Positions 2,278 to 19,289 of a stretch of DNA of 21,176 nucleotides are shown one piece after another (within the stretch, counting starts at the first letter, position 1; every line of letters begins with the position of its first letter). Below the pieces are notes generated by a model. It had not been told where the DNA came from and made no database searches. It was given only the letters and a program-made list of their open reading frames with translations. The translations under genes and the position numbers were made by a program. The DNA comes from a virus: positions 1 to 21,176 of IMG/VR virus record IMGVR_UViG_3300009093_000138, one strand, 5' to 3'.

Positions 2278-2985
2278 CTACGTGGAGAACAGGGCCTGCA
2301 GCGCCGTCCACGCGGCCGTGTCTTGCGTCGCGACGAGGACGACGGCGCCGACGTTCGTGGCGGGCGCGGCGCCGCCCGGGATGCCGCCGGCGACCGCGGC
2401 GACGAGCTCGGTGCCGAAGTTGGACAGCTGGCCGGTGTACGAGTATCCGTGCACGCCCGCGGTGGCGAATAGGCTCAGCAGGTTGACGAGCGTGAGCTGC
2501 ACGCCGGAGAGCGACGCCGCGCGCGCCTGGATAGCGGCGATGCGCGCCTGGATGCCGGCGACGCGCGCCGCGAGCGCCGAGACCTTGGCGGCGAGGCCCG
2601 TGACCTTCGCGACCGCGCTGGCGAGCGCGGACTCGAGGCTGGCGATGAACCCGGGTACACCGAGCGCGATGGCCTGGACGATCGAAAGGAGGAGCGTCCC
2701 GCTCGTGATCGAATCCGCGACGGCCTGCATCTGCGACGCAAAGCTCGACGCCGCGCCCGCGAGCTGGCCGGTGAGGTCGGTGACGATGCCCTGCGCGCTC
2801 GCGACGTCTGCCTCTGCGGCGCCCAGGTCGGCGAGAACGGCCTGCACGTCCTGCGTGAGCGCGAGGACGTCCTGCCCGAGCGCAGCCACCTCGGCGAGGA
2901 GCGCGAGGTTCGCGGGACCGATGCCGGACAGGACGGCGGGTTGAAACGTGCCGACGTTGCCGCCGCCCAGGTCGTGGATGGTCAT
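2278..2985 (-). CDS. Alanine-rich coiled-coil baseplate-region protein
   Basis: 235 residues; ATG overlaps the previous stop. Almost wholly alpha-helical: LALLAEVAALGQDVLALTQD, ASSFASQMQAVADSITSG, VSALAARVAGIQARIAAIQA and so on, with clear heptad spacing of hydrophobic residues (roughly residues 20-165). A Gly-rich segment separates a short C-terminal domain (YSYTGQLSNFGTELVAA...). It sits between the OB-fold pair and gp46-like gene, a place where no such protein occurs in Mu itself. A trimeric stalk or needle for the spike is possible. No domain recognised. Stop is TAG. Confidence 0.65.
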   Translation of the reverse strand: MTIHDLGGGNVGTFQPAVLSGIGPANLALLAEVAALGQDVLALTQDVQAVLADLGAAEADVASAQGIVTDLTGQLAGAASSFASQMQAVADSITSGTLLLSIVQAIALGVPGFIASLESALASAVAKVTGLAAKVSALAARVAGIQARIAAIQARAASLSGVQLTLVNLLSLFATAGVHGYSYTGQLSNFGTELVAAVAGGIPGGAAPATNVGAVVLVATQDTAAWTALQALFST

Positions 2986-3458
2986 GACGTCGCCAGCACC
3001 TTGCCGCTGCCCGCGGCCGCGACCCCCACGATGGGTGTCGTGATGGTCATCGTGGTTCCCGGGGGCACGGGGCTACTCGCGACCGAGCCCGTGACCAGCA
3101 TCAGCGGCGGCAGCGCGAGGGCCACGGGGTCACCCGATCGCACCACGCCGCGCGCGTTCCCCTTCCCCCCGAGGATGATCTGCACGACGTCGCCGGGTTC
3201 CCAGAGCGAGAACACGGGGCGCGATGGGTCGCCGTTCTCGAAGCCGAGCAGCCCGCGGGAGCCCTTGGCGACCTGCGCCGTCGTGCCGGGGAGGCCGTAT
3301 CGTAGGTCGGCCTTCATGCCTGGCACGCGCGGATCGTCCGGCTGGATCTCGACGGATTGACCGACCTGGCGCACGACCGTCGACGGGTAGAGGGCGAAGA
3401 AGTCGAAGCGCGCGACGAGCGAGCGGATGATGGCCGTGACGAACGTGGCGAACGTCAC
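2982..3458 (-). CDS. OB-fold spike/baseplate protein, second paralog (gp45-like)
   Basis: 158 residues from GTG at 3458 (GTGA overlap with the previous stop). It aligns along its length with the preceding protein: FFALYPSTVVRQ, VEIQPDDPRVPGMKADLRYG, LPGTTAQVAKGSRGLLGFE, PVFSLWEPGDVVQIILGG, GDPVALALPP and GKVLATS. The pair is a tandem duplication, with divergence concentrated in the middle. The upstream in-frame extension has shadow composition and was rejected. Its TGA overlaps the next ATG. Confidence 0.7.
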   Translation of the reverse strand: MTFATFVTAIIRSLVARFDFFALYPSTVVRQVGQSVEIQPDDPRVPGMKADLRYGLPGTTAQVAKGSRGLLGFENGDPSRPVFSLWEPGDVVQIILGGKGNARGVVRSGDPVALALPPLMLVTGSVASSPVPPGTTMTITTPIVGVAAAGSGKVLATS

Positions 3459-3946
3459 GAGACCGCTAGCACCTTGCTCGAGCCGCGCAGCCAGCTGCCC
3501 TTGAGCGTCACGGGCTGCGCGTTCGTGAGCGATAGGCCCGCGGCGACGTTGGTGAACACGATGCCGCCGGGGGGGATGGGTAGATCGTCGGGGCCGGGTG
3601 CCTGTACGGCGTCGCCGACGCACGCCACGGGCCGGCCGCCGTCGCCGCCGAGAGACACGCTGATCACGTCGTCGGCCGACACGAGGTAGGCGAACGGCGC
3701 TCGCGGCGAGCCGCCGGAAAAGCCCAGCTGCACGCGCGTGCCCGTCTTCACGCGCACGACCGCGCCGGGGATGCCGAGGCGGACGGGTACGTTGGTGGCC
3801 ACGGGCACGAGCGGCGAGTCCGGAAGCACGTCGACCGCGCCGTCGGCGCGCTGCGCGGTCACCTTGCCGGCGTAGAGAGCGAAGAGGCCGAGGCGCGCGA
3901 GGCGCACGCTCGCGAGGGCGCGTACGAAGGCCAGGGTGTTACTCAA
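3455..3946 (-). CDS. OB-fold spike/baseplate protein, first paralog (gp45-like)
   Basis: 163 residues from the TTG at 3946, which overlaps the hub stop (TTGAGTAA). Start chosen because the N-terminus then aligns with the following paralog to within one residue. Pattern: FALYAGKVTAQR, VDVLPDSPLVP, VRLGIPGAVVRVKTGTRVQL, APFAYLVSADDVISVSLGGD and C-terminal SSKVLAVS. This is the OB-fold type of phage spike/baseplate protein (Mu gp45/gpV class). No His-rich iron-binding tip is seen. Confidence 0.7.
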   Translation of the reverse strand: MSNTLAFVRALASVRLARLGLFALYAGKVTAQRADGAVDVLPDSPLVPVATNVPVRLGIPGAVVRVKTGTRVQLGFSGGSPRAPFAYLVSADDVISVSLGGDGGRPVACVGDAVQAPGPDDLPIPPGGIVFTNVAAGLSLTNAQPVTLKGSWLRGSSKVLAVS

Positions 3947-4598
3947 AGTAGGCCTCCGTACGCACGGCGTCGTCGCCGATGAGGTGCTCGACGTACCCGA
4001 CCTTTTGACCAAGGAACGTCACGCCGGGTAGCAGCCACGGATCCTCGCAGCTGATCTGCACGTACTGGCGGTCGCCTCGCTCGTCGAGGAGCGTGAACAC
4101 CGGGGCGTCTACGCCCGAACTCGGGACCGTGGGGAACGTGTCGGTGCCGACCCAGATCGTGCCGTCGGCCTGTACGCGCCACGTGGCGCCGAGCTCGTTC
4201 GCGACCTGGTCGACGCCGAACGACGCGGGCCCGGTGAACATCGCCCATCGCGCGAACACCGTGGCCGTGGCCGCGGCGTCGCTCGCCGAGGACAGCGTCT
4301 CGCCGACCTGCGCGACGATGTCGCTGAGCACCGACTTGGCGGTCGCCTGTTCCCAGTACTTCTTCTGCACCGTCTTCGGCAGGCCCGCGCCGCCGCCGAC
4401 GATGCGCGCCTGGAAGACGCCGCGCACGACCGCGGAGTCCACGATCGTGCCCACGAAGGTCACGCCCGTCGACGCCTGCAGCGTGATCTTGCCCGCGAGG
4501 AGCTCGGGGGTCATGAGCTCGACGTCGCCCGTCCACACGCCCTGCCTCGGCATCGCGAAGCGAGCCTTGAGAACGGGAACGCCGCCGTCGGTTTGCAT
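3939..4598 (-). CDS. Baseplate hub protein (Mu P/gp44-like)
   Basis: 219 residues, ATG one base after the previous stop. Beta-strand-rich start (VPVLKARFAMPRQGVWTGD, ITLQASTGVTFVGTIVDSAV), then QKKYWEQATAKSVLSDIVAQ, a helical part and TWRVQADGTIWVGTDTFP. The C-terminal WLLPGVTFLGQKVGYVEH and the terminal acidic/aromatic end are typical of gpD/gp27-type hub proteins, which form the trimeric hub that carries the spike. The protein is shorter than T4 gp27, consistent with Mu-like hubs. Its TAA stop overlaps the TTG start of the next gene by eight bases. Confidence 0.7.
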   Translation of the reverse strand: MQTDGGVPVLKARFAMPRQGVWTGDVELMTPELLAGKITLQASTGVTFVGTIVDSAVVRGVFQARIVGGGAGLPKTVQKKYWEQATAKSVLSDIVAQVGETLSSASDAAATATVFARWAMFTGPASFGVDQVANELGATWRVQADGTIWVGTDTFPTVPSSGVDAPVFTLLDERGDRQYVQISCEDPWLLPGVTFLGQKVGYVEHLIGDDAVRTEAYFE

Positions 4599-4599
4599 G

Positions 4600-5241
4600 C
4601 TACCTGCCGAAGAATCCGCGAGCTCCGCCGGCGGGCACGGGCGGCCTCGAGGCGACGGTCGACGATGGCGGCGGGTTGGCGTAGCTGCCGTCGGCGCGCT
4701 GCTGCAGGACGTTCTGCGGCACCTTGCCTGGGTCGCGCGAGCCGATGGTGCGCGTCACGTCCTTCTTCGGCGGGAAGTACTCGTAACAGTCGATCTCGAT
4801 GACGTAGCCGTCCTTCGTGTATTTCGGTCCCTTGATCTTGTGCGGGAGGATCGACCTCACGCCCCATAGCGCGGCGACGGGATGCTGAATGTCGAGCTTC
4901 TGGACGTTGCCGATGTTGCCGCTGGGTCGGAAGTAGAAGGCGATGGCCTGGAAGGCCTCCCATTCTTCCTTCGTCGACAACGTCGTCTTGATCTTCACCT
5001 TCGCGGGCGCGGGCCCGTCGTCGGTGATGCTCGCGCCCGGCCGACCCTTCGGCTTGTTCACGTCGAGGCGCTGCTCGGGGTCCACGTCGACCGTAGACAC
5101 GCCGGGGATCGTGAACTTCTGCCCCTGCTGCGGCGTGAGCACGACGCTGTCCCACGTCTTCGGCTGATCGTCCCAAAAGGGGATTCGTAGCGGCGCCGCA
5201 GGGGCCGGGCCCGTCGTCTTCGGAAGCGTGGGACCAGGCAT
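4600..5241 (-). CDS. Baseplate/hub-adaptor protein (Mu N position)
   Basis: 213 residues; starts two bases after the tape measure TAG. Proline-rich N-terminus, then LRIPFWDDQPKTWDSVVLTP, FTIPGVSTVDVDPEQRLDV, KVKIKTTLSTKEEWEAF and YVIEIDCYEYFPPKKDVTR: a beta-rich protein of the baseplate-hub adaptor type (N/LysM-type proteins that follow tape measures). C-terminal 40 residues are Pro/Gly-rich and disordered. No peptidoglycan hydrolase motif. Function is inferred from order. Stop is TAG. Confidence 0.6.
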   Translation of the reverse strand: MPGPTLPKTTGPAPAAPLRIPFWDDQPKTWDSVVLTPQQGQKFTIPGVSTVDVDPEQRLDVNKPKGRPGASITDDGPAPAKVKIKTTLSTKEEWEAFQAIAFYFRPSGNIGNVQKLDIQHPVAALWGVRSILPHKIKGPKYTKDGYVIEIDCYEYFPPKKDVTRTIGSRDPGKVPQNVLQQRADGSYANPPPSSTVASRPPVPAGGARGFFGR

Positions 5242-5243
5242 CG

Positions 5244-7226
5244 CTACATCGCTCCGCTCTGCGCCGCGGCGTCGCGCGCGGCCGCAGCGCCAGCGCCTCG
5301 GTTCACGCTCTCGTTGATGGCTTGCCCGACGCCCTCGCCGATCTTCTTCGCGTCGCCCTCCGTCTTCACGGTGACGCCGCCGACCTCGACGTGGATCGAC
5401 TGCTGGAGCTGTCCCTTTGCCTTGTCATTCAGGACGCTCCACCACGGCGACGACGAGTCCTGAGCGGGCGCGTTGGGCGCGAACTTGACGCCCGACTCCT
5501 TGAGCGTCTGCTCGAACATGTTCTTTTGGAACTCGAGGAAGTACTCCCGCTGCCGAGCGATATCGTCCGAGTGCGGAATGATCGTGGCGTTCGTGAACGC
5601 ATCGACCTTCGAGTTCGAAAGATCTTTGATTTGCTCGTCGTAGCCGCCTCGACGCACGCTGAGCTCGAACTGATCTTTGAGTTGCTGGAGCGTGACGTCG
5701 CCCTCTTGCCCCGACCTCTGCATCGCGGCGTGCTTCGACCCAAACCCCTTGGCGACGCTCATTAGATCCGCGTCGCTGCCCGCGTAATCCTCGGCCGTGG
5801 GGTTGGTCGAGAAGTAGTCGTGGATCGATTTGATCGCTTTCACGACCTCGCCGAGGACGCTAGCGAGCGTCTTGCCGAAGCTGATGGCGGTCTCGAAGAA
5901 GTCCTGGATACCGCTCTTGCCGTTCGGCCCCACCTTGGTCATGTCGGTGAGGATGTTGAACACGCTGGAGAGGATGTCCTGCAGCGCGTGACTCGCCGCC
6001 GGCGTCTCGAGCATGCCGCGCACATCCCTCAGGAAGTCGATGACGGGCTGGACGTTCACGCCCTCGAGGAGCTCGTCGAGCGAGACCTTCAGCGCATTGA
6101 GGCCACCGCCCACGGTGTTGGCCGTGATGTCCGCCTGCGTGGCGCCGAGGACGCCCGTGCGCTCGACCTTGGAATTGATCGCCTGCAGCGCCGCCTGGAT
6201 GACGTCGCCCTCGCTCACGATTCCCTGATGCAGCTTCTGCTTCGCCACATCCGTCGTTGTGCCGAACATCTTCCCGAGCTGGGCTTCGATGGCCTCGGGC
6301 GCGATGCCCAGGTGCTCTAGACCCATGAGCGCGCCGGTCGAAAGCTTCCCGCCCTTGTCTCGCTGGCGCTCCAGCTTGTCGATGAACTGCTCGATGGTCT
6401 TCAGGCCGCCCTTGGGGTCGCCCATGATGTCGCCCAAGGCCATGCCGCCGGAGATGATTCCGCGAATGCTCTCGACCTGAAACCCGACGTTTCGCAGGTG
6501 CAGGTACGTCTTCTCCAGGATCTCGGGCGCGATCCCGAGGTCCTTCGCCGCTTCCTTCATCTCTTGGAAGGCCTCGACACCTCGGCCAGTGGCGCGTTCA
6601 GCGATGTCGAACGCCGCTCCCATCTGCACGCCCCAGTCGTGCGCGTGGATGGCGTCCGCAAGCAGTTCCTCGCCCACCTCGATGAGATTGCCGATGACGG
6701 CACCGACGATGTTGAGGGTGGCGTCGAACGCCATGTTCAGCGCGCCGACTGCGACGCCGGCCTTTACTAGGTCGCCGAGTCCAACCTGCGCCGCCACGTG
6801 GTCGACGATGCCACGCACCTGCTTCCAGTTCTCGACGTCCTCTTTCCCCGGCGAGTGCGAGCCGCCGCCGCTCGCGCCGCCGCCACCTCTCATCAGGTAG
6901 CTGGCGTCGCTCGGTCCGCCCTTAGCCATGGTGCGGTACGCCTCGAGGACGCCCGCGTGTCCGCCCGCTGCACCCGCGGCCTTCGGCGCGCCGAAGTCCC
7001 CGGACTCGAGGTCGATGCCGAATAAATCCTCGATGCCCTTCTTGTCGACCTTGAGCTGCCTCGACTGGCCGGCGACCGTCTTCAGGGTCTCGTTGAGCTT
7101 CTTCACCTGCGCGTCGGCGCGGTCGGCTCCGCCCGTGATGGCGTCGATCGACTGCTTGATCTCGTTCGCGGGCCCCGTGAGCTCGTTGACGAGCTCGACT
7201 TCCCAGGAAGTACTCTCGTCGGGCAT
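5244..7226 (-). CDS. Tail tape measure protein
   Basis: 660 residues, ATG start. An N-terminal helical, coiled-coil-like region (EIKQSIDAITGGADRADAQV, about 20-60) and Gly/Ser-rich region (about 110-130) precede a hydrophobic stretch at about 153-182 (LVKAGVAVGALNMAFDATLN), typical of tape measures. The rest is long alpha-helical sequence with repeated FFETAISFGKTLASV and DVRGMLETPA segments. It sets tail length; by the usual rule of about 0.15 nm per residue the tail would be near 100 nm. No lysozyme or peptidase domain is visible in it. It ends in TAG. Confidence 0.9.
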   Translation of the reverse strand: MPDESTSWEVELVNELTGPANEIKQSIDAITGGADRADAQVKKLNETLKTVAGQSRQLKVDKKGIEDLFGIDLESGDFGAPKAAGAAGGHAGVLEAYRTMAKGGPSDASYLMRGGGGASGGGSHSPGKEDVENWKQVRGIVDHVAAQVGLGDLVKAGVAVGALNMAFDATLNIVGAVIGNLIEVGEELLADAIHAHDWGVQMGAAFDIAERATGRGVEAFQEMKEAAKDLGIAPEILEKTYLHLRNVGFQVESIRGIISGGMALGDIMGDPKGGLKTIEQFIDKLERQRDKGGKLSTGALMGLEHLGIAPEAIEAQLGKMFGTTTDVAKQKLHQGIVSEGDVIQAALQAINSKVERTGVLGATQADITANTVGGGLNALKVSLDELLEGVNVQPVIDFLRDVRGMLETPAASHALQDILSSVFNILTDMTKVGPNGKSGIQDFFETAISFGKTLASVLGEVVKAIKSIHDYFSTNPTAEDYAGSDADLMSVAKGFGSKHAAMQRSGQEGDVTLQQLKDQFELSVRRGGYDEQIKDLSNSKVDAFTNATIIPHSDDIARQREYFLEFQKNMFEQTLKESGVKFAPNAPAQDSSSPWWSVLNDKAKGQLQQSIHVEVGGVTVKTEGDAKKIGEGVGQAINESVNRGAGAAAARDAAAQSGAM

Positions 7227-14414: not shown

Positions 14415-15098
14415 TCAGCCAGCGGCGAGGCGCGCGCCCGGCGCGGCCTTCACGGGGAGGTTCAGCGCGACGATGTCGCCGTCGTTGAGGCCCGCGGCCT
14501 TCATCTGCAGCGGCGTGAGCGACGCGGGGATGCCGCGCGGGAACTTCTTCACGAGCTTGCGGTTCGCCACGTAGGACTCGGGCGTCACACCGAGCTTCTC
14601 GATGGTCTCGAGCTCCTCGGCGCTGAGGTCGGTGTCGTTCACTGTGCCTCCCTGCGTGGCACCCGCGGCCACGGTGCCGCCGCCGTCCTGCGGCTTCAGC
14701 TGCTGGCGCGGCTCCGGGAGGACGAGCGGCGGGCGCGTCGCGAGGTAGTTGTCGAACGCCTTGTCGCTCTCCATACCGAGCGAGATCGCGAAGTCGCGCT
14801 CGGCCGGCGCGATCTTCTTGTCGGCGATGAGCTTGTCGACGCGGCCGGTGAGCGTCTGCTTCTTCGCCTCGGCCTTCGACGCCGCGAGGTCGGTCGAGAG
14901 CTGCTGGATCTTGGTGCCCGACGTCGCTGCGTCGTTCTTCCAGACCTTCACCTGCGCGACGGCGTCGCGGGGCTCGTCGATGCCCGTGAGCTCGACGATG
15001 TCCTCCATCGTGCGCCCTAGCGCCTGAATGGCCGCGAGCACCTCGGCCTCGCTCGCCGTCTCCGAAAGCCCCAGCGCCGCCAGAATGAGCTTGTTCAT
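14415..15098 (-). CDS. Scaffold-like head assembly protein (Mu Z position)
   Basis: 227 residues from the ATG at 15098, preceded by a GGAGAG ribosome-binding site. The longer in-frame extension upstream lies inside the protease gene and has shadow-type composition, so it was rejected. The protein begins MNKLILAALGLSETASEAEV, has a helical, charged, coiled-coil-like middle (QQLSTDLAASKAEAKKQTLT) with the pattern of phage proteins cut by I-type proteases, and ends in a proline- and alanine-rich segment. It lies between protease and decoration/capsid genes, the place of the Mu scaffold Z. The C-terminal part has a conserved-looking LSAEELETIEKLGVTPESY segment. Scaffold role is inferred from position and composition. 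Confidence 0.75.
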   Translation of the reverse strand: MNKLILAALGLSETASEAEVLAAIQALGRTMEDIVELTGIDEPRDAVAQVKVWKNDAATSGTKIQQLSTDLAASKAEAKKQTLTGRVDKLIADKKIAPAERDFAISLGMESDKAFDNYLATRPPLVLPEPRQQLKPQDGGGTVAAGATQGGTVNDTDLSAEELETIEKLGVTPESYVANRKLVKKFPRGIPASLTPLQMKAAGLNDGDIVALNLPVKAAPGARLAAG

Positions 15099-15141
15099 CG
15101 TGTCTCTCCGTCGTCTGTCGGCGCTCGGGCGGGCGCGCGCG

Positions 15142-16137
15142 TCACTTGGTGGGCCGGTGGAATCGGCCGGTTGGCTTGTGACGAGGGTGCTTGTCCGTCG
15201 CGAACTTCTTCCGCGGCGGCGTTGCCGTCGTCTTCGTCGCGTTCTCGTCCCACGGCGGGGACATGCCGAAGAGCGCGAACTCCTTGGCGAGGTGGGTGCG
15301 TACGGACTCGAAGTCGGCCTCGGGCACCACGGCGTTGCCCGCCACGACCTGGCGGCCAGCCTCGATGAGCGCAGGCCTGGACACCACGAGCTCGCCGGCG
15401 ATGGCGTCGTGGTGGAGGAGCCGGTAGTCGCCGAGGTTCTCCGGCGAGCGCGGGTCGTACCAGGCAAACGCCTTGCGATATAGCTCGAGGTCGAGCGTGC
15501 CGGGTTGCCCCGAGCCGTCGCGCGAGGCCCACGAGCGCACGCGCCGGAGGTTCTCCGCCGCGTCGTAGACGAGGAACGGGTCGTACGTCGGCGTGGCCTC
15601 GAAGCTCACCGTGCCGCTCGGGGCGTTCGGGGCATCGGTCTGCGCGCCCTGCTGGTCATCGGCGAGGAGCAGTCCGCCGGCGAGCGGCACGAGCGGCTGC
15701 GCGTTGCACGTCGCCGGCGTCGAGGTCAGTGCGACGTTCAGGATCTCGGTGACGACGCCCTCTTCGTGCATGAAGAGCGGGCTGACGTACCGGACTTCCT
15801 TCGCGAGGATGCGCTGGCGCGCGAGGTCCGTGTACCGGACGTCGACGGCATGCAGCTCGTCGTTCGCCACCGCGAGCCGGAACCACCCCGCGGCCATCTT
15901 CTGATGCCCGGGGATGAACGGGTTGAGGATGTCGTGCTCGTAGTCGAACGAGTAGTCGTTTCCCCAGTCGGCCGCCGACGCCATGACGCGCTTGACGCTC
16001 TCGCCGTCGAAGGTGAAGTCGCCCTTCTTCGTGCGGTTCGTTCCCGCGCGAAAGAGTCGGATGTCGGTCGGCAGCTGGTCGCCGATGAGCCCGGACAGCA
16101 GGTCGATGGCCAGCGCCGCGCGTTCGGGTTTCGCCAT
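15142..16137 (-). CDS. Mu I-like prohead protease with extra C-terminal domain
   Basis: Capsid maturation protease of the Mu gpI type. 331 residues, ATG start with a weak GAGG eight bases upstream. The protease part (about 1-150) has FTFDGESVKRVMAS, the DYEH box at 65-68, GHQKMAAGW (77-85), KEVRYVSPLF (113-122) and LNVALTSTPA (133-142), all typical. Instead of the usual low-complexity scaffold tail, residues about 186-297 form a second domain: DAAENLRRVRSWAS, YRKAFAWYDP, LHHDAIAGELVVSR and MSPPW. I recognise this second domain as a conserved module seen in other phage head proteins, function unknown. A basic tail (KKFATDKHPRHKPTGR) closes the protein. The scaffold function is probably in the following gene. 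Confidence 0.88.
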   Translation of the reverse strand: MAKPERAALAIDLLSGLIGDQLPTDIRLFRAGTNRTKKGDFTFDGESVKRVMASAADWGNDYSFDYEHDILNPFIPGHQKMAAGWFRLAVANDELHAVDVRYTDLARQRILAKEVRYVSPLFMHEEGVVTEILNVALTSTPATCNAQPLVPLAGGLLLADDQQGAQTDAPNAPSGTVSFEATPTYDPFLVYDAAENLRRVRSWASRDGSGQPGTLDLELYRKAFAWYDPRSPENLGDYRLLHHDAIAGELVVSRPALIEAGRQVVAGNAVVPEADFESVRTHLAKEFALFGMSPPWDENATKTTATPPRKKFATDKHPRHKPTGRFHRPTK

Positions 16138-16242: not shown

Positions 16243-16479
16243 TCACTTGAAGATCAGCGCGCGCACCGCGCAGTCCTTCGCCTCGAGGAGCTTGCGCAGG
16301 CAGACCGTGCGCTCGGGGTTCGAGGGCACCGTCGCGCAGATGGCCTGCGCGAGCTCGCAGAACGGTTTGCTCACCGCCTGTAGCTTCTAGGGCAGGTGCT
16401 CGAAGGCGAAGAACTGAAGCATTCGATCCGGCGGCGCGGCCGGGCGGTCTTCGGGCTTGATGGGAGTCGGGTCGGTCAT
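16243..16479 (-). CDS. Acb2-like small helical protein with in-frame amber codon at position 31
   Basis: 79 codons including the terminal TGA. ATG at 16479 overlaps the MuF TGA (ATGA). The frame reads MLQFFAFEHLP, then TAG (16389-16387), then KLQAVSKPFCELAQAI and VPSNPERTVCLRKLLEAKDC, ending AVRALIFK. Both halves belong to one conserved phage protein pattern (HLPxxLQxxSxPFxxLA...LPxxxE[KR]TVALRKLLEAKD), so the TAG interrupts a real gene. The C-terminal pattern P-x3-E-[KR]-[ST]-x2-L-x-K-L-x-E-A, seven residues after LA, is the core spacing of the Acb2 family (T4 Vs.4 and relatives), which sequester CBASS cyclic nucleotides. That assignment is by eye. The TAG could be GAG mutated, a sequencing error, suppressed or read through. 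Restart at the GTG at 16374 would give 43 residues with only the C-terminal core. About 105 bases without a gene follow before the protease. Confidence 0.7.
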
Positions 16480-17174
16480 GTCTGTTCCTCCGCGTGCTTC
16501 ACGCGCTCGTATTGCGACCACAAGTCCGGCGGGTAGTCGCCGCGGTCGGGCTGCCAGTCACGTACGCCCGGCGGCGCGCCGAAGCCGTCGGCCGGCTGCA
16601 CGCTCGTGGGGTTCGGCGTCACGCCCATCGAATGCGCTTGCTCCTCGGTGAGCGAGATGGTGGAGCACCTGCACGCGAAGTGCATCGGCGGCACGTGCGT
16701 GTGCCACCACGGATGCGAGAGCGGCAGGATGGTGCCGTCGGCCGCGCCGCAGATGGGACACGTGCGCTCGTCCTGCGTGGCGTCGAAGAGCGCGTACGGC
16801 CGGTCGTCGGCGACGTCCTGCTGCTCGAGCCAGCGGCCGGCGTTGTACGCGCTCTGCAGGTTCGTGCGGAAGATGGTCTCGAGGCGCCACGCGGGGTCGG
16901 CGACGGTGCCGTCCCACGCGTCCTCGAGCTGGTCGGCGATGCGCGCCTTGAAGTCTTCGAGCGTCTCGCCGCGCTGCATGGCGTGCTTGAGCGACTCGAG
17001 AACGTCGGCCACGAGGTCGAGGTCGGCCACGCCCGACACCGTAAAAGCCTTCTCGCGAGCCGCGGCGTCGAGCTCGTCCCACTCGGCGCTCGCGATCGGC
17101 AGCTTGCCGCGGAACCACGCGATCGACCGCTCGGGCTTCGCGGGGTCGAACTCGGGGATCTCGAGCTGTTCCAC
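16476..17174 (-). CDS. MuF-type head morphogenesis protein (SPP1 gp7 family)
   Basis: Minor head protein of the Mu gpF family (PF04233), bound to the portal and needed for proper head assembly; in some phages it is ejected with DNA. 232 residues, GTG start at 17174 seven bases after the preceding stop. The MuF core runs from about residue 85 to 175: RTNLQSAYNAGRW, then D-x-R-x-C139-P-I-C142, then H160-VPP-M-H165-FAC168-RC170. The paired cysteines and histidines look like a complete metal-binding set. No C-terminal toxin domain is present: only about 60 residues follow the motif. The stop overlaps the next ATG (ATGA). Confidence 0.92.
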   Translation of the reverse strand: MEQLEIPEFDPAKPERSIAWFRGKLPIASAEWDELDAAAREKAFTVSGVADLDLVADVLESLKHAMQRGETLEDFKARIADQLEDAWDGTVADPAWRLETIFRTNLQSAYNAGRWLEQQDVADDRPYALFDATQDERTCPICGAADGTILPLSHPWWHTHVPPMHFACRCSTISLTEEQAHSMGVTPNPTSVQPADGFGAPPGVRDWQPDRGDYPPDLWSQYERVKHAEEQT

Positions 17175-17481: not shown

Positions 17482-19289
17482 GACGGGTTCTCCTGTCGCA
17501 CGGTTGCGCGCCCGGCGAGGGTCGCGAGCATGAGCGTGGTGTGCACCAGCTCGGCCATCGTCTTGGGGTTCATGCGCGCGTGAGCGCGGAGGAGGCGCGC
17601 GCGCATGTCCTCGGGCGAGGTCGCGAGCTGCACGGCGGCAAGCACGGCGTCGAGGTCATCGCGCTGCGTCTTCGCCGCGGCCGACTGCCCCTTGGCGACG
17701 AGCTCGTCGACGTAGCGCTGGCCCTCGTCGGCGAGGGCTCCGAGCGCGCCGAGCGCGGCGCGCACCCGGGGCTTGGGCGGCGTCGGTTCCTTCCCCGCAT
17801 CATCCTCGCCGTCCTTCGGTGGCGACTCTCCACCCTTGCCCGCGCCGGGTTTCGGCGGCGGCGGCCGACCAGGTGCCGAGCCAGGGGGCAGCATCCCGGG
17901 TGGCATCGGCGGCGGCTCGGGCTTCTCCGGCAGCTCCTCGGGGTCGCACCCCTCGGGCAAGATGCCCGCTTCCTGCAAGATCATCCGCGACTCGACCTCG
18001 CTGATGATGCCGGCCTGAACGAGCGGAGGCAGTCCCACGCCGTACTGCGCGCACGTGTCGGCCTTGAGCTTCTGATCTTCCGGCGGCTTGACGCTCCACA
18101 AGAACTCGGGGAGCTCGTCGTCGGTGAATCCCGCGATGTTGATGATGCAGTACTCGCGGATGACCTGACGGACGACGTCGCGCGCGAACGGGTGGATGGT
18201 GCCGCCGATGACATCGAGGCGGACGTTGTTGTGCGCCTGCGCGGCCGCGTTGCTGCCCTTGCTCCCGATCTCGGTCGTGAGGTTCTGCCCGAGGAGGACG
18301 ATGGCAATCGAGGTGCTGACGGCCTCGATGAAGCGCTGGAACGACTCCCACGAGGTGTCCTTCGGCTCGACGAACGACAGGACGACGCTCTCGCCCTTGC
18401 TGTTCTTCGGCATGCGGAGCGTCGACTCCGCACCCAGGCGCCTGACCTTGTCGTAGAAGGACTTCTTCTTCCCGGCGTCGAGGTTCGGCGGCTCCGTGAT
18501 CGTGAGGATCGGGACGCCGTGCTTCTCGCAAAAGCGCAGCCAGTCCTGGTAGGAGAACTGGCGGAAGATGAAGAGCAGGCCGAGCGCGCGGATGCTGCCG
18601 CCGAGCCACGAGCGCTCGCCGTTCGGGAAGTGGCAAAACCACGCCGTCGGGTCCTCTTGGACGCGAACGGGACCCGTCGTCGTCGACGCGTACAGCCCCT
18701 GCTGGTAGACCCACCACGCGTGCTGGAGCTCCCACGGCTCGAGCACGGGAAGCCACTCGCCGTTGACGAGCGTCCAACGCTTCTGGGCGAGTGAGAAGCC
18801 CATGAGCGCGGTCTGTTCGAGGATGCGCGAGAACACCTCGTCGGGGCAGATCGTCTTCCACGCTTCGCGCACGCGGTCGGCGACCATCTGCGCGCGCTTC
18901 GAGTCGCGCGCGGTCGACGACGCCTTGACCTCGAAGGGCAGGCCCTTGATCGAGTTGAGGAGCGCCTGCAGGCACCCTGCGATGCGGTCGTCGCGCCGGA
19001 GCGCCGTGGCGAGCTTCGCGCTCGCCGTGAACATGCCCTCCTCGTGCTCGTCGAGCGCGGTGCGGACGCGCGGGATGGTCCACGAGCTCGTCTGCTCGAC
19101 GGGCAGCGTGCGGTAGATGACGAGCGTGGGCGGGCTCGCCGTCTTGCCCTTCTTCTGGATGCGGCCGACGATGGCGCCGGGGCTCGGCGCGAGGTCGCGC
19201 TCGGGCGTGGCCTTGCCGGGCTTGGGCGGCGGCGTGGCGAGCGACGCGCGGCGCGCGCGCGAATGCGTCTTCGCCAGCTTCTTCTTCAT
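17478..19289 (-). CDS. Mu gp29-like (DUF935) portal protein
   Basis: Portal protein, the dodecameric ring at the capsid vertex through which DNA passes and on which the head assembles. It has 603 residues from the ATG that overlaps the upstream TGA. A lysine- and proline-rich N-terminal tail (about 1-60) precedes the DUF935 core. Typical segments are RRDDRIAGCLQALLNSIKGL, GFSLAQKRW, FCEKHGVPILTITEPPN and LLGQNLTTE. A Pro/Gly-rich linker (roughly residues 470-525) leads to a C-terminal helical part ending in MAELVHTTLMLATLAGRA, as in other members of the family. The stop overlaps the next start (ATGA). The length is slightly above the usual 500-550, explained by the N-terminal tail and the linker. 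The position after terminase matches Mu. Confidence 0.93.
   Translation of the reverse strand: MKKKLAKTHSRARRASLATPPPKPGKATPERDLAPSPGAIVGRIQKKGKTASPPTLVIYRTLPVEQTSSWTIPRVRTALDEHEEGMFTASAKLATALRRDDRIAGCLQALLNSIKGLPFEVKASSTARDSKRAQMVADRVREAWKTICPDEVFSRILEQTALMGFSLAQKRWTLVNGEWLPVLEPWELQHAWWVYQQGLYASTTTGPVRVQEDPTAWFCHFPNGERSWLGGSIRALGLLFIFRQFSYQDWLRFCEKHGVPILTITEPPNLDAGKKKSFYDKVRRLGAESTLRMPKNSKGESVVLSFVEPKDTSWESFQRFIEAVSTSIAIVLLGQNLTTEIGSKGSNAAAQAHNNVRLDVIGGTIHPFARDVVRQVIREYCIINIAGFTDDELPEFLWSVKPPEDQKLKADTCAQYGVGLPPLVQAGIISEVESRMILQEAGILPEGCDPEELPEKPEPPPMPPGMLPPGSAPGRPPPPKPGAGKGGESPPKDGEDDAGKEPTPPKPRVRAALGALGALADEGQRYVDELVAKGQSAAAKTQRDDLDAVLAAVQLATSPEDMRARLLRAHARMNPKTMAELVHTTLMLATLAGRATVRQENPS

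Follow-up and report, generated by a model that had tools for sequence, protein, structure and literature searches.

An in-frame amber codon in a conserved small gene, predicted to encode an Acb2-like helical hairpin, of a contractile-tailed phage known from sequence records

A small gene next to a Mu F-like head gene contains a single in-frame TAG

The window analyzed here is a whole virus record, IMGVR_UViG_3300009093_000138, of 21,176 bases, with a G+C content of 68.6%, from a phage known solely from sequence records. On its minus strand lies a small gene of 78 codons plus a stop, surrounded by structural genes of a contractile-tailed phage (Table 1). These surroundings include genes for a Mu F-like protein, a protease, and a major head protein (phrog_371), and PHROG matches identify sheath (phrog_907) and baseplate wedge (phrog_6) genes as further neighbors. 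The terminase, portal, scaffold, and tape measure labels used in this work are presumptive, having been assigned here or earlier from gene position.

The frame of the small gene runs from an ATG at 16479-16477 to a TGA at 16245-16243. Its translation is MTDPTPIKPEDRPAAPPDRMLQFFAFEHLP, followed by a single TAG as codon 31, then KLQAVSKPFCELAQAICATVPSNPERTVCLRKLLEAKDCAVRALIFK and the terminal stop, without any other internal stop. When X was put in place of the TAG, the protein matched phrog_1761 (E = 2.2e-27, residues 8 to 76) and phrog_5120 (E = 9.6e-18). Since the PHROG profile match spans both sides of the TAG, the two halves are parts of one conserved domain. This confirms the central claim of an earlier, sequence-only reading of this DNA, which had noticed an in-frame amber codon inside a conserved small phage gene; the TAG interrupts an otherwise conserved frame.

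Table 1. Positions of the small gene, its parts, and its neighbors in the window
Feature	Position	Strand	Basis
Small gene, phrog_1761/phrog_5120 type, predicted Acb2-like helical hairpin	16243..16479	-	Frame, PHROG matches, structure model
In-frame TAG at codon 31, where the first long helix of the read-through model begins	16387..16389	-	Frame, model; identical TAG in the second record (L002/L082)
Segment 5' of the stop, encoding a 30-residue product with a variable leader and predicted short helix 19-24	16390..16479	-	Frame, model
Part after the stop: 47 codons, most conserved residues, predicted helices 31-50 and 55-76	16246..16386	-	Alignment, model
Possible re-initiation ORF, GTG start, 43 residues, nearly the whole predicted hairpin	16243..16374	-	ORF reading
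Ribosome-binding site GGAGG, intact, 7 bases 5' of the ATG	16487..16491	-	Sequence
Upstream gene, Mu F-like minor head protein, ATGA overlap with the small gene	16476..17174	-	PF04233, E = 1.7e-22; phrog_220, E = 4.6e-59
Downstream gene, Mu I-like protease, start 105 bases past the TGA of the small gene	15142..16137	-	PF10123, E = 6.7e-24, model positions 1-137

The same reading had described the start of the gene as intact, which is borne out by the ribosome-binding site and the overlap, and both flanking genes as coupled to it, which holds on one side. Upstream, the ATGA overlap at 16479-16476 couples the small gene to the Mu F-like gene. Downstream, the protease start at 16137 is separated from the TGA by a 105-base gap, and this side is therefore not translationally coupled.

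Several other features of the region were noted. The Pfam model of the Mu-like protease is split across two ORFs (14415-16137, minus strand), with the N-terminal model positions in the downstream gene of Table 1 and model positions 144 to 329 in the frame ending at 14415. This split probably reflects separate protease and scaffold genes, as the ATG at 15098 has its own ribosome site. In the tail region (2278-7226, minus strand), six proteins had no PHROG match at an E value of 0.001 (5244-7226, 4600-5241, 3939-4598, 3455-4012, 2982-3623, and 2278-2985). Two of these baseplate-region neighbors, 2982-3623 and 3455-4012, are mutually related (identity at 59 of 163 aligned columns, E = 2e-18), which suggests a tandem duplication, and neither matched a PHROG family at that threshold. 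A search of viral_contigs with the major capsid protein returned a near-identical record and four records at 29 to 38% identity, and a search of genome_contigs returned no match. These searches gave neither a host nor a close intact relative. With six tail proteins unmatched in PHROGs and capsid relatives of 29 to 38% identity, the phage appears distant from known groups.

The TAG is shared by a second, near-identical record

The near-identical record, IMGVR_UViG_3300025913_000118 (21,145 bases), carries the small gene base for base, TAG included. By arithmetic from the matches, it begins at window base 3439 and extends 3,407 bases beyond the window end. The two records differ at 7 of 12,957 compared bases, and none of these mismatches lies within the small gene. 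Three are synonymous single changes and two are non-synonymous single changes; the other two are adjacent (18096-18097, minus strand) and form the sole double change, in portal codon 426. Its number suggests that the second record may be a re-assembly of an earlier sample; a search for papers naming this number gave no match.

Given that a near-identical record with different ends has the same TAG, an error in a single assembly is unlikely. A sequencing or assembly error common to both records, if they were built from overlapping reads, as they may have been, would be compatible with how little they differ. It would also be compatible with a pattern search using a 30-base stretch in which the TAG codon was allowed to vary, which matched the second record alone and found no sense allele and no third record. 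Against this, two records with different ends agree, and in our judgment a substitution error is unlikely to survive into two consensus sequences. We therefore regard a shared error as quite improbable.

TAG ends four other genes of the phage

The sequence-only reading had argued against a recoded genome on the grounds that TAG serves as a normal stop for TMP and for the genes at 4600, 2278, and 10412. All four TAG-ended genes were confirmed. Across 24 tabulated genes, the stop is TGA in 19, TAG in 4, and TAA in 1. The 23 genes other than the small gene were selected for being open, which in part accounts for their freedom from internal stops. Three of the four genes with a terminal TAG are followed, after 1, 2, or 10 bases, by a further ORF with an ATG start, as genuine stops would be. 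Reading through TMP and the three other TAGs would add 61, 218, 26, and 135 codons. No tRNA was found in the window, in a search of both records (for which the control was positive in 14 of 14 genomes), or in the additional 3.4 kb, a total of 24.6 kb from what is probably an incomplete genome. The argument against recoding is thus supported both by the four TAG-terminated genes and by the lack of tRNA in this sequence.

Programmed recoding, whether a code 15-type reassignment of TAG or a pyrrolysine-like insertion, would offer an explanation for an in-frame TAG within a conserved gene. Under code 15, TAG would be found inside many genes and would not be used as a stop; in this phage, TAG ends 4 of 24 genes, and one internal TAG was recognized. 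Together with the tRNA result and the many different residues found at this site in relatives (below), this makes programmed recoding the least credible of the explanations considered, and we set it close to nil.

Relatives examined have no stop inside the conserved domain

The family of the small gene is widespread, with 325 phage records at E values up to 1, and its neighbors differ between phages (minor tail, holin, terminase small subunit, and DNA maturase genes), as expected of an accessory gene. To place the TAG among these relatives, we scanned the best 80 of 454, the best 80 of at least 554, and the best 80 of 206 matches. The queries were the read-through protein or its alignment, and badly broken copies would consequently be under-counted.

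Among the best 80 of 454 relatives, a stop interrupts the conserved domain in the second record alone, and two others (L012 and L018) have one upstream only. Of 175 viral or phage loci examined, 171 matched, and after removal of the second record's own two loci these gave 139 distinct other domain sequences. A stop inside the conserved domain was found in 0 of these 139, and in three loci (L012, L018, and L210) one precedes the domain. The result was the same for 80 genomic loci, the best of a longer list, which may overlap with the 139 viral and phage sequences: 0 of 80 have a stop inside the domain, and one (L316) has one upstream. In each of ten annotated phages that we examined, the domain is part of a single CDS. 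No split gene was found among the relatives examined (best 80 of 454, 139 viral and phage, and 80 genomic sequences). The sequence-only reading would have been overturned by homologs in which the second half is always a separate gene; in the other members examined, both halves lie in the same ORF. The window copy, with its TAG, differs from phrog_1761, phrog_5120, and phrog_1454, in whose other members examined the domain runs uninterrupted. Within the window and its 3.4-kb extension, no other frame scored better than an E value of 0.6 as a second copy of the domain or an Acb2-like gene.

A programmed readthrough site should have its stop conserved among homologs, which is contrary to the counts of 0/139 and 0/80. 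A nonsense null, in turn, should have its stop in one lineage only and upstream of the structural core, and this is the arrangement seen here.

The residue that the TAG replaced was also considered. The sequence-only reading had proposed a one-base change from GAG. Glutamate is indeed the commonest residue at the codon-31 site among the 139 sequences, one of which is unaligned there (E, 46 of 138; P, 39; A, 23; D, 9; and others), but proline is ahead in two 80-sequence counts (25 of 80, versus 24 for glutamate, in each), such that a glutamate origin is favored by one count and not by the other two. As the site varies among P, E, A, D, and other residues, no special decoding is expected there.

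The read-through protein has a predicted fold like that of Acb2

To compare the small protein with known families, we used an alignment (A1) of the window protein and 39 of 79 other relatives (from the best 80 of 454), hand-chosen so as to remove near-duplicates and keep the set small. Every one of the 40 A1 members matches both phrog_1761 and phrog_5120, for which PHROGs gives no function. A third family with no function given, phrog_1454, is matched weakly by 29 of 40 members and, also weakly, by T4 Vs.4 (E = 7e-4).

The structure model of the read-through protein (pLDDT, 90.9; pTM, 0.72) has a short helix at residues 19 to 24 and two long helices at 31 to 50 and 55 to 76. The short loop between the long helices suggests that they would pack antiparallel. 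PMC12043709 describes the Acb2 protomer as a short N-terminal helix plus two long helices, and the model predicts the same short helix and two long helices for the small protein.

Searches for formal membership in the Acb2/Tad1 hairpin family (PF24729) fell below significance. None of the 40 A1 members matched PF24729 at E values up to 1, and 1 of 10 distant relatives reached 16.4 bits, against a curated Pfam cut-off of 27. The small-gene family thus lies below the cut-off, while T4 Vs.4, used as a positive control, lies above it (71.4 bits). A genome-wide search found 0 of 15 records over the cut-off. The weak match of 15 to 16 bits in a distant relative calls for caution, because 8 of 14 control genomes give similar sub-cut-off matches. 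The distant relative with 16.4 bits is gp27 of Brevibacterium phage AGM2 (L286, 1489-1680), a possible bridge between the small-gene family and the Acb2/Tad1 hairpin family.

Other comparisons gave similar results. Among 50 listed rows of a BFVD fold search (143 matches in all), 12 were named Acb2/Tad1 hairpin, with a best E value of 0.16; the matches below 0.001 among the rows listed were one protein named anti-TRAP and one unnamed protein. PDB sequence and fold searches from the small-gene family had no Acb2/Tad1 protein among the entries listed, and an NCBIfam search gave no significant support for Acb2 membership. Profile-profile comparisons against T4 Vs.4 itself and against alignments of relatives of p26 and Vs.4 were weak (P = 0.025 to 0.13), and a wider alignment did no better. 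The name p26 is carried by 8h2j and other PDB chains; we take it to be the Acb2 of PaMx33. As Pfam, NCBIfam, PDB, and profile comparisons all fell short of significance, we call the protein sponge-like only and do not file it under PF24729. On the strength of the model, it plausibly soaks up cyclic-nucleotide alarm signals in the manner of an Acb2-type sponge.

The sequence after the stop is well preserved

If the gene was lost, the state of its tail should reflect when. Of the 47 residues after the stop, 39 equal the family consensus (0.83, compared with a mean of 0.77 for intact relatives), and 34 of 39 relatives in A1 score no higher than the window. All 23 post-stop positions that are conserved at ≥90% among the 39 A1 relatives are kept. 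In a neutral simulation, which assumes random substitutions, 7 substitutions in the 141 bases left these 23 positions intact and the frame free of stops in 4.3% of trials. Hence, neutral substitution has reached about 5% at most, unless the stretch remains under selection. The loss, which the sequence-only reading had expected to be recent, apparently would be so, and the conservation of the tail fits recent loss, readthrough, and re-initiation alike.

Re-initiation could occur at an in-frame GTG 12 bases downstream of the TAG. The resulting 43 residues would span most of helix 31-50 and all of helix 55-76 of the model, and this bare hairpin might work alone or with the 30-residue leader, so that the gene would have been split or tuned down rather than lost. 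While the undecayed tail is in keeping with this, GTG is a common codon of a conserved valine there (28 of 139 relatives), no strong ribosome site is evident before it, no relative examined has a split gene, and the part left out holds the conserved QFF..HLP segment. Re-initiation is therefore an unlikely explanation.

We consider it similarly unlikely that the TAG is read through, by a host amber suppressor or because it is leaky, to give some full-length protein. The undecayed tail and the tolerance of the site for different residues would suit such a product, and a survey makes the case that in-frame stops are widely read through in prokaryotes, albeit in mostly short-lived cases (PMC7918605). 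On the other hand, suppression would also extend TMP and the three other TAG-ended genes by the lengths given above, the 24.6 kb of phage sequence holds no tRNA, and no relative examined carries the stop.

A readthrough-promoting structure at the TAG was considered and rejected, as two pieces centered on the codon folded like their shuffles (z = -0.08 and -0.13). For the 144 bases after the TAG, the advantage over shuffles was slight (z = -1.19, equaled by 28 of 200). A 90-base piece with the TAG at its start (16300-16389, minus strand) was clearly ahead of its dinucleotide-shuffled versions (z = -2.78, 1 of 200); a GC-rich coding stretch could give such a value, and we do not take it as a signal.

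Discussion

The sequence-only reading had left nonsense mutation, sequencing error, suppression, and programmed readthrough as options for the TAG. Plain nonsense loss now leads among these. We think it probable that this lineage of contractile-tailed phages, which carries Mu-like head genes, has recently lost a dispensable accessory gene to a nonsense mutation. The points that weigh against plain loss are the undecayed tail, for which continued translation would give the same picture, the presence of the stop in both records, the intact ribosome-binding site and overlap, and the fold of the 90-base stretch.

Under nonsense loss, the intact gene would have yielded a helical-hairpin protein of roughly 60 to 78 residues, plausibly a cyclic-nucleotide sponge, and the TAG at the start of the hairpin would leave a 30-residue product without the fold. 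Because the TAG falls on the first residue of the long hairpin in the model, that product, composed of the variable leader, short helix, and loop, should be non-functional. Its loss may have been tolerated in a host without the matching defense, or favored where a guard system of the host penalizes sponges, in the way that Panoptes penalizes Acb2. We infer here the loss of function, the sponge function, and the reason that the loss was tolerated or favored.

A related but doubtful possibility is that this wild phage keeps a sponge-like anti-defense gene switched off through a single amber codon, which suppression or reversion could undo. The phage would thereby avoid hosts that punish sponges through Panoptes-type guards and would retain the rest of the gene for use in hosts that signal through CBASS- or Thoeris-type systems. 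We rate this as improbable as a sequencing error common to both records.

Stops in sponge-type genes have precedents. According to PMC12657218, acb2 of Pseudomonas phage PaMx41 has a premature stop, and so do alleles of the T4 gene for Vs.4, there named acb2/vs.4, in phages that escape Panoptes. The present case is like these in that a natural or selected phage has a stop inside a small helical-hairpin gene of sponge type. It differs in that the PaMx41 and T4 genes are established Acb2 genes, whereas the small gene here is sponge-like by predicted fold only. More generally, PMC7918605 finds in-frame stops to be most frequent in the mobilome category, with many orthologous ones short-lived.

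The TAG is a further example of an already known kind, and taken alone, it amounts to one broken gene in one phage. The wide distribution of the family, its lack of a function in PHROGs, and its predicted Acb2-like fold add some weight to the case. If the sponge reading is true, this phage would provide another wild sponge gene broken by a stop, like that of PaMx41, in keeping with the view that carrying a sponge has a cost in certain hosts.
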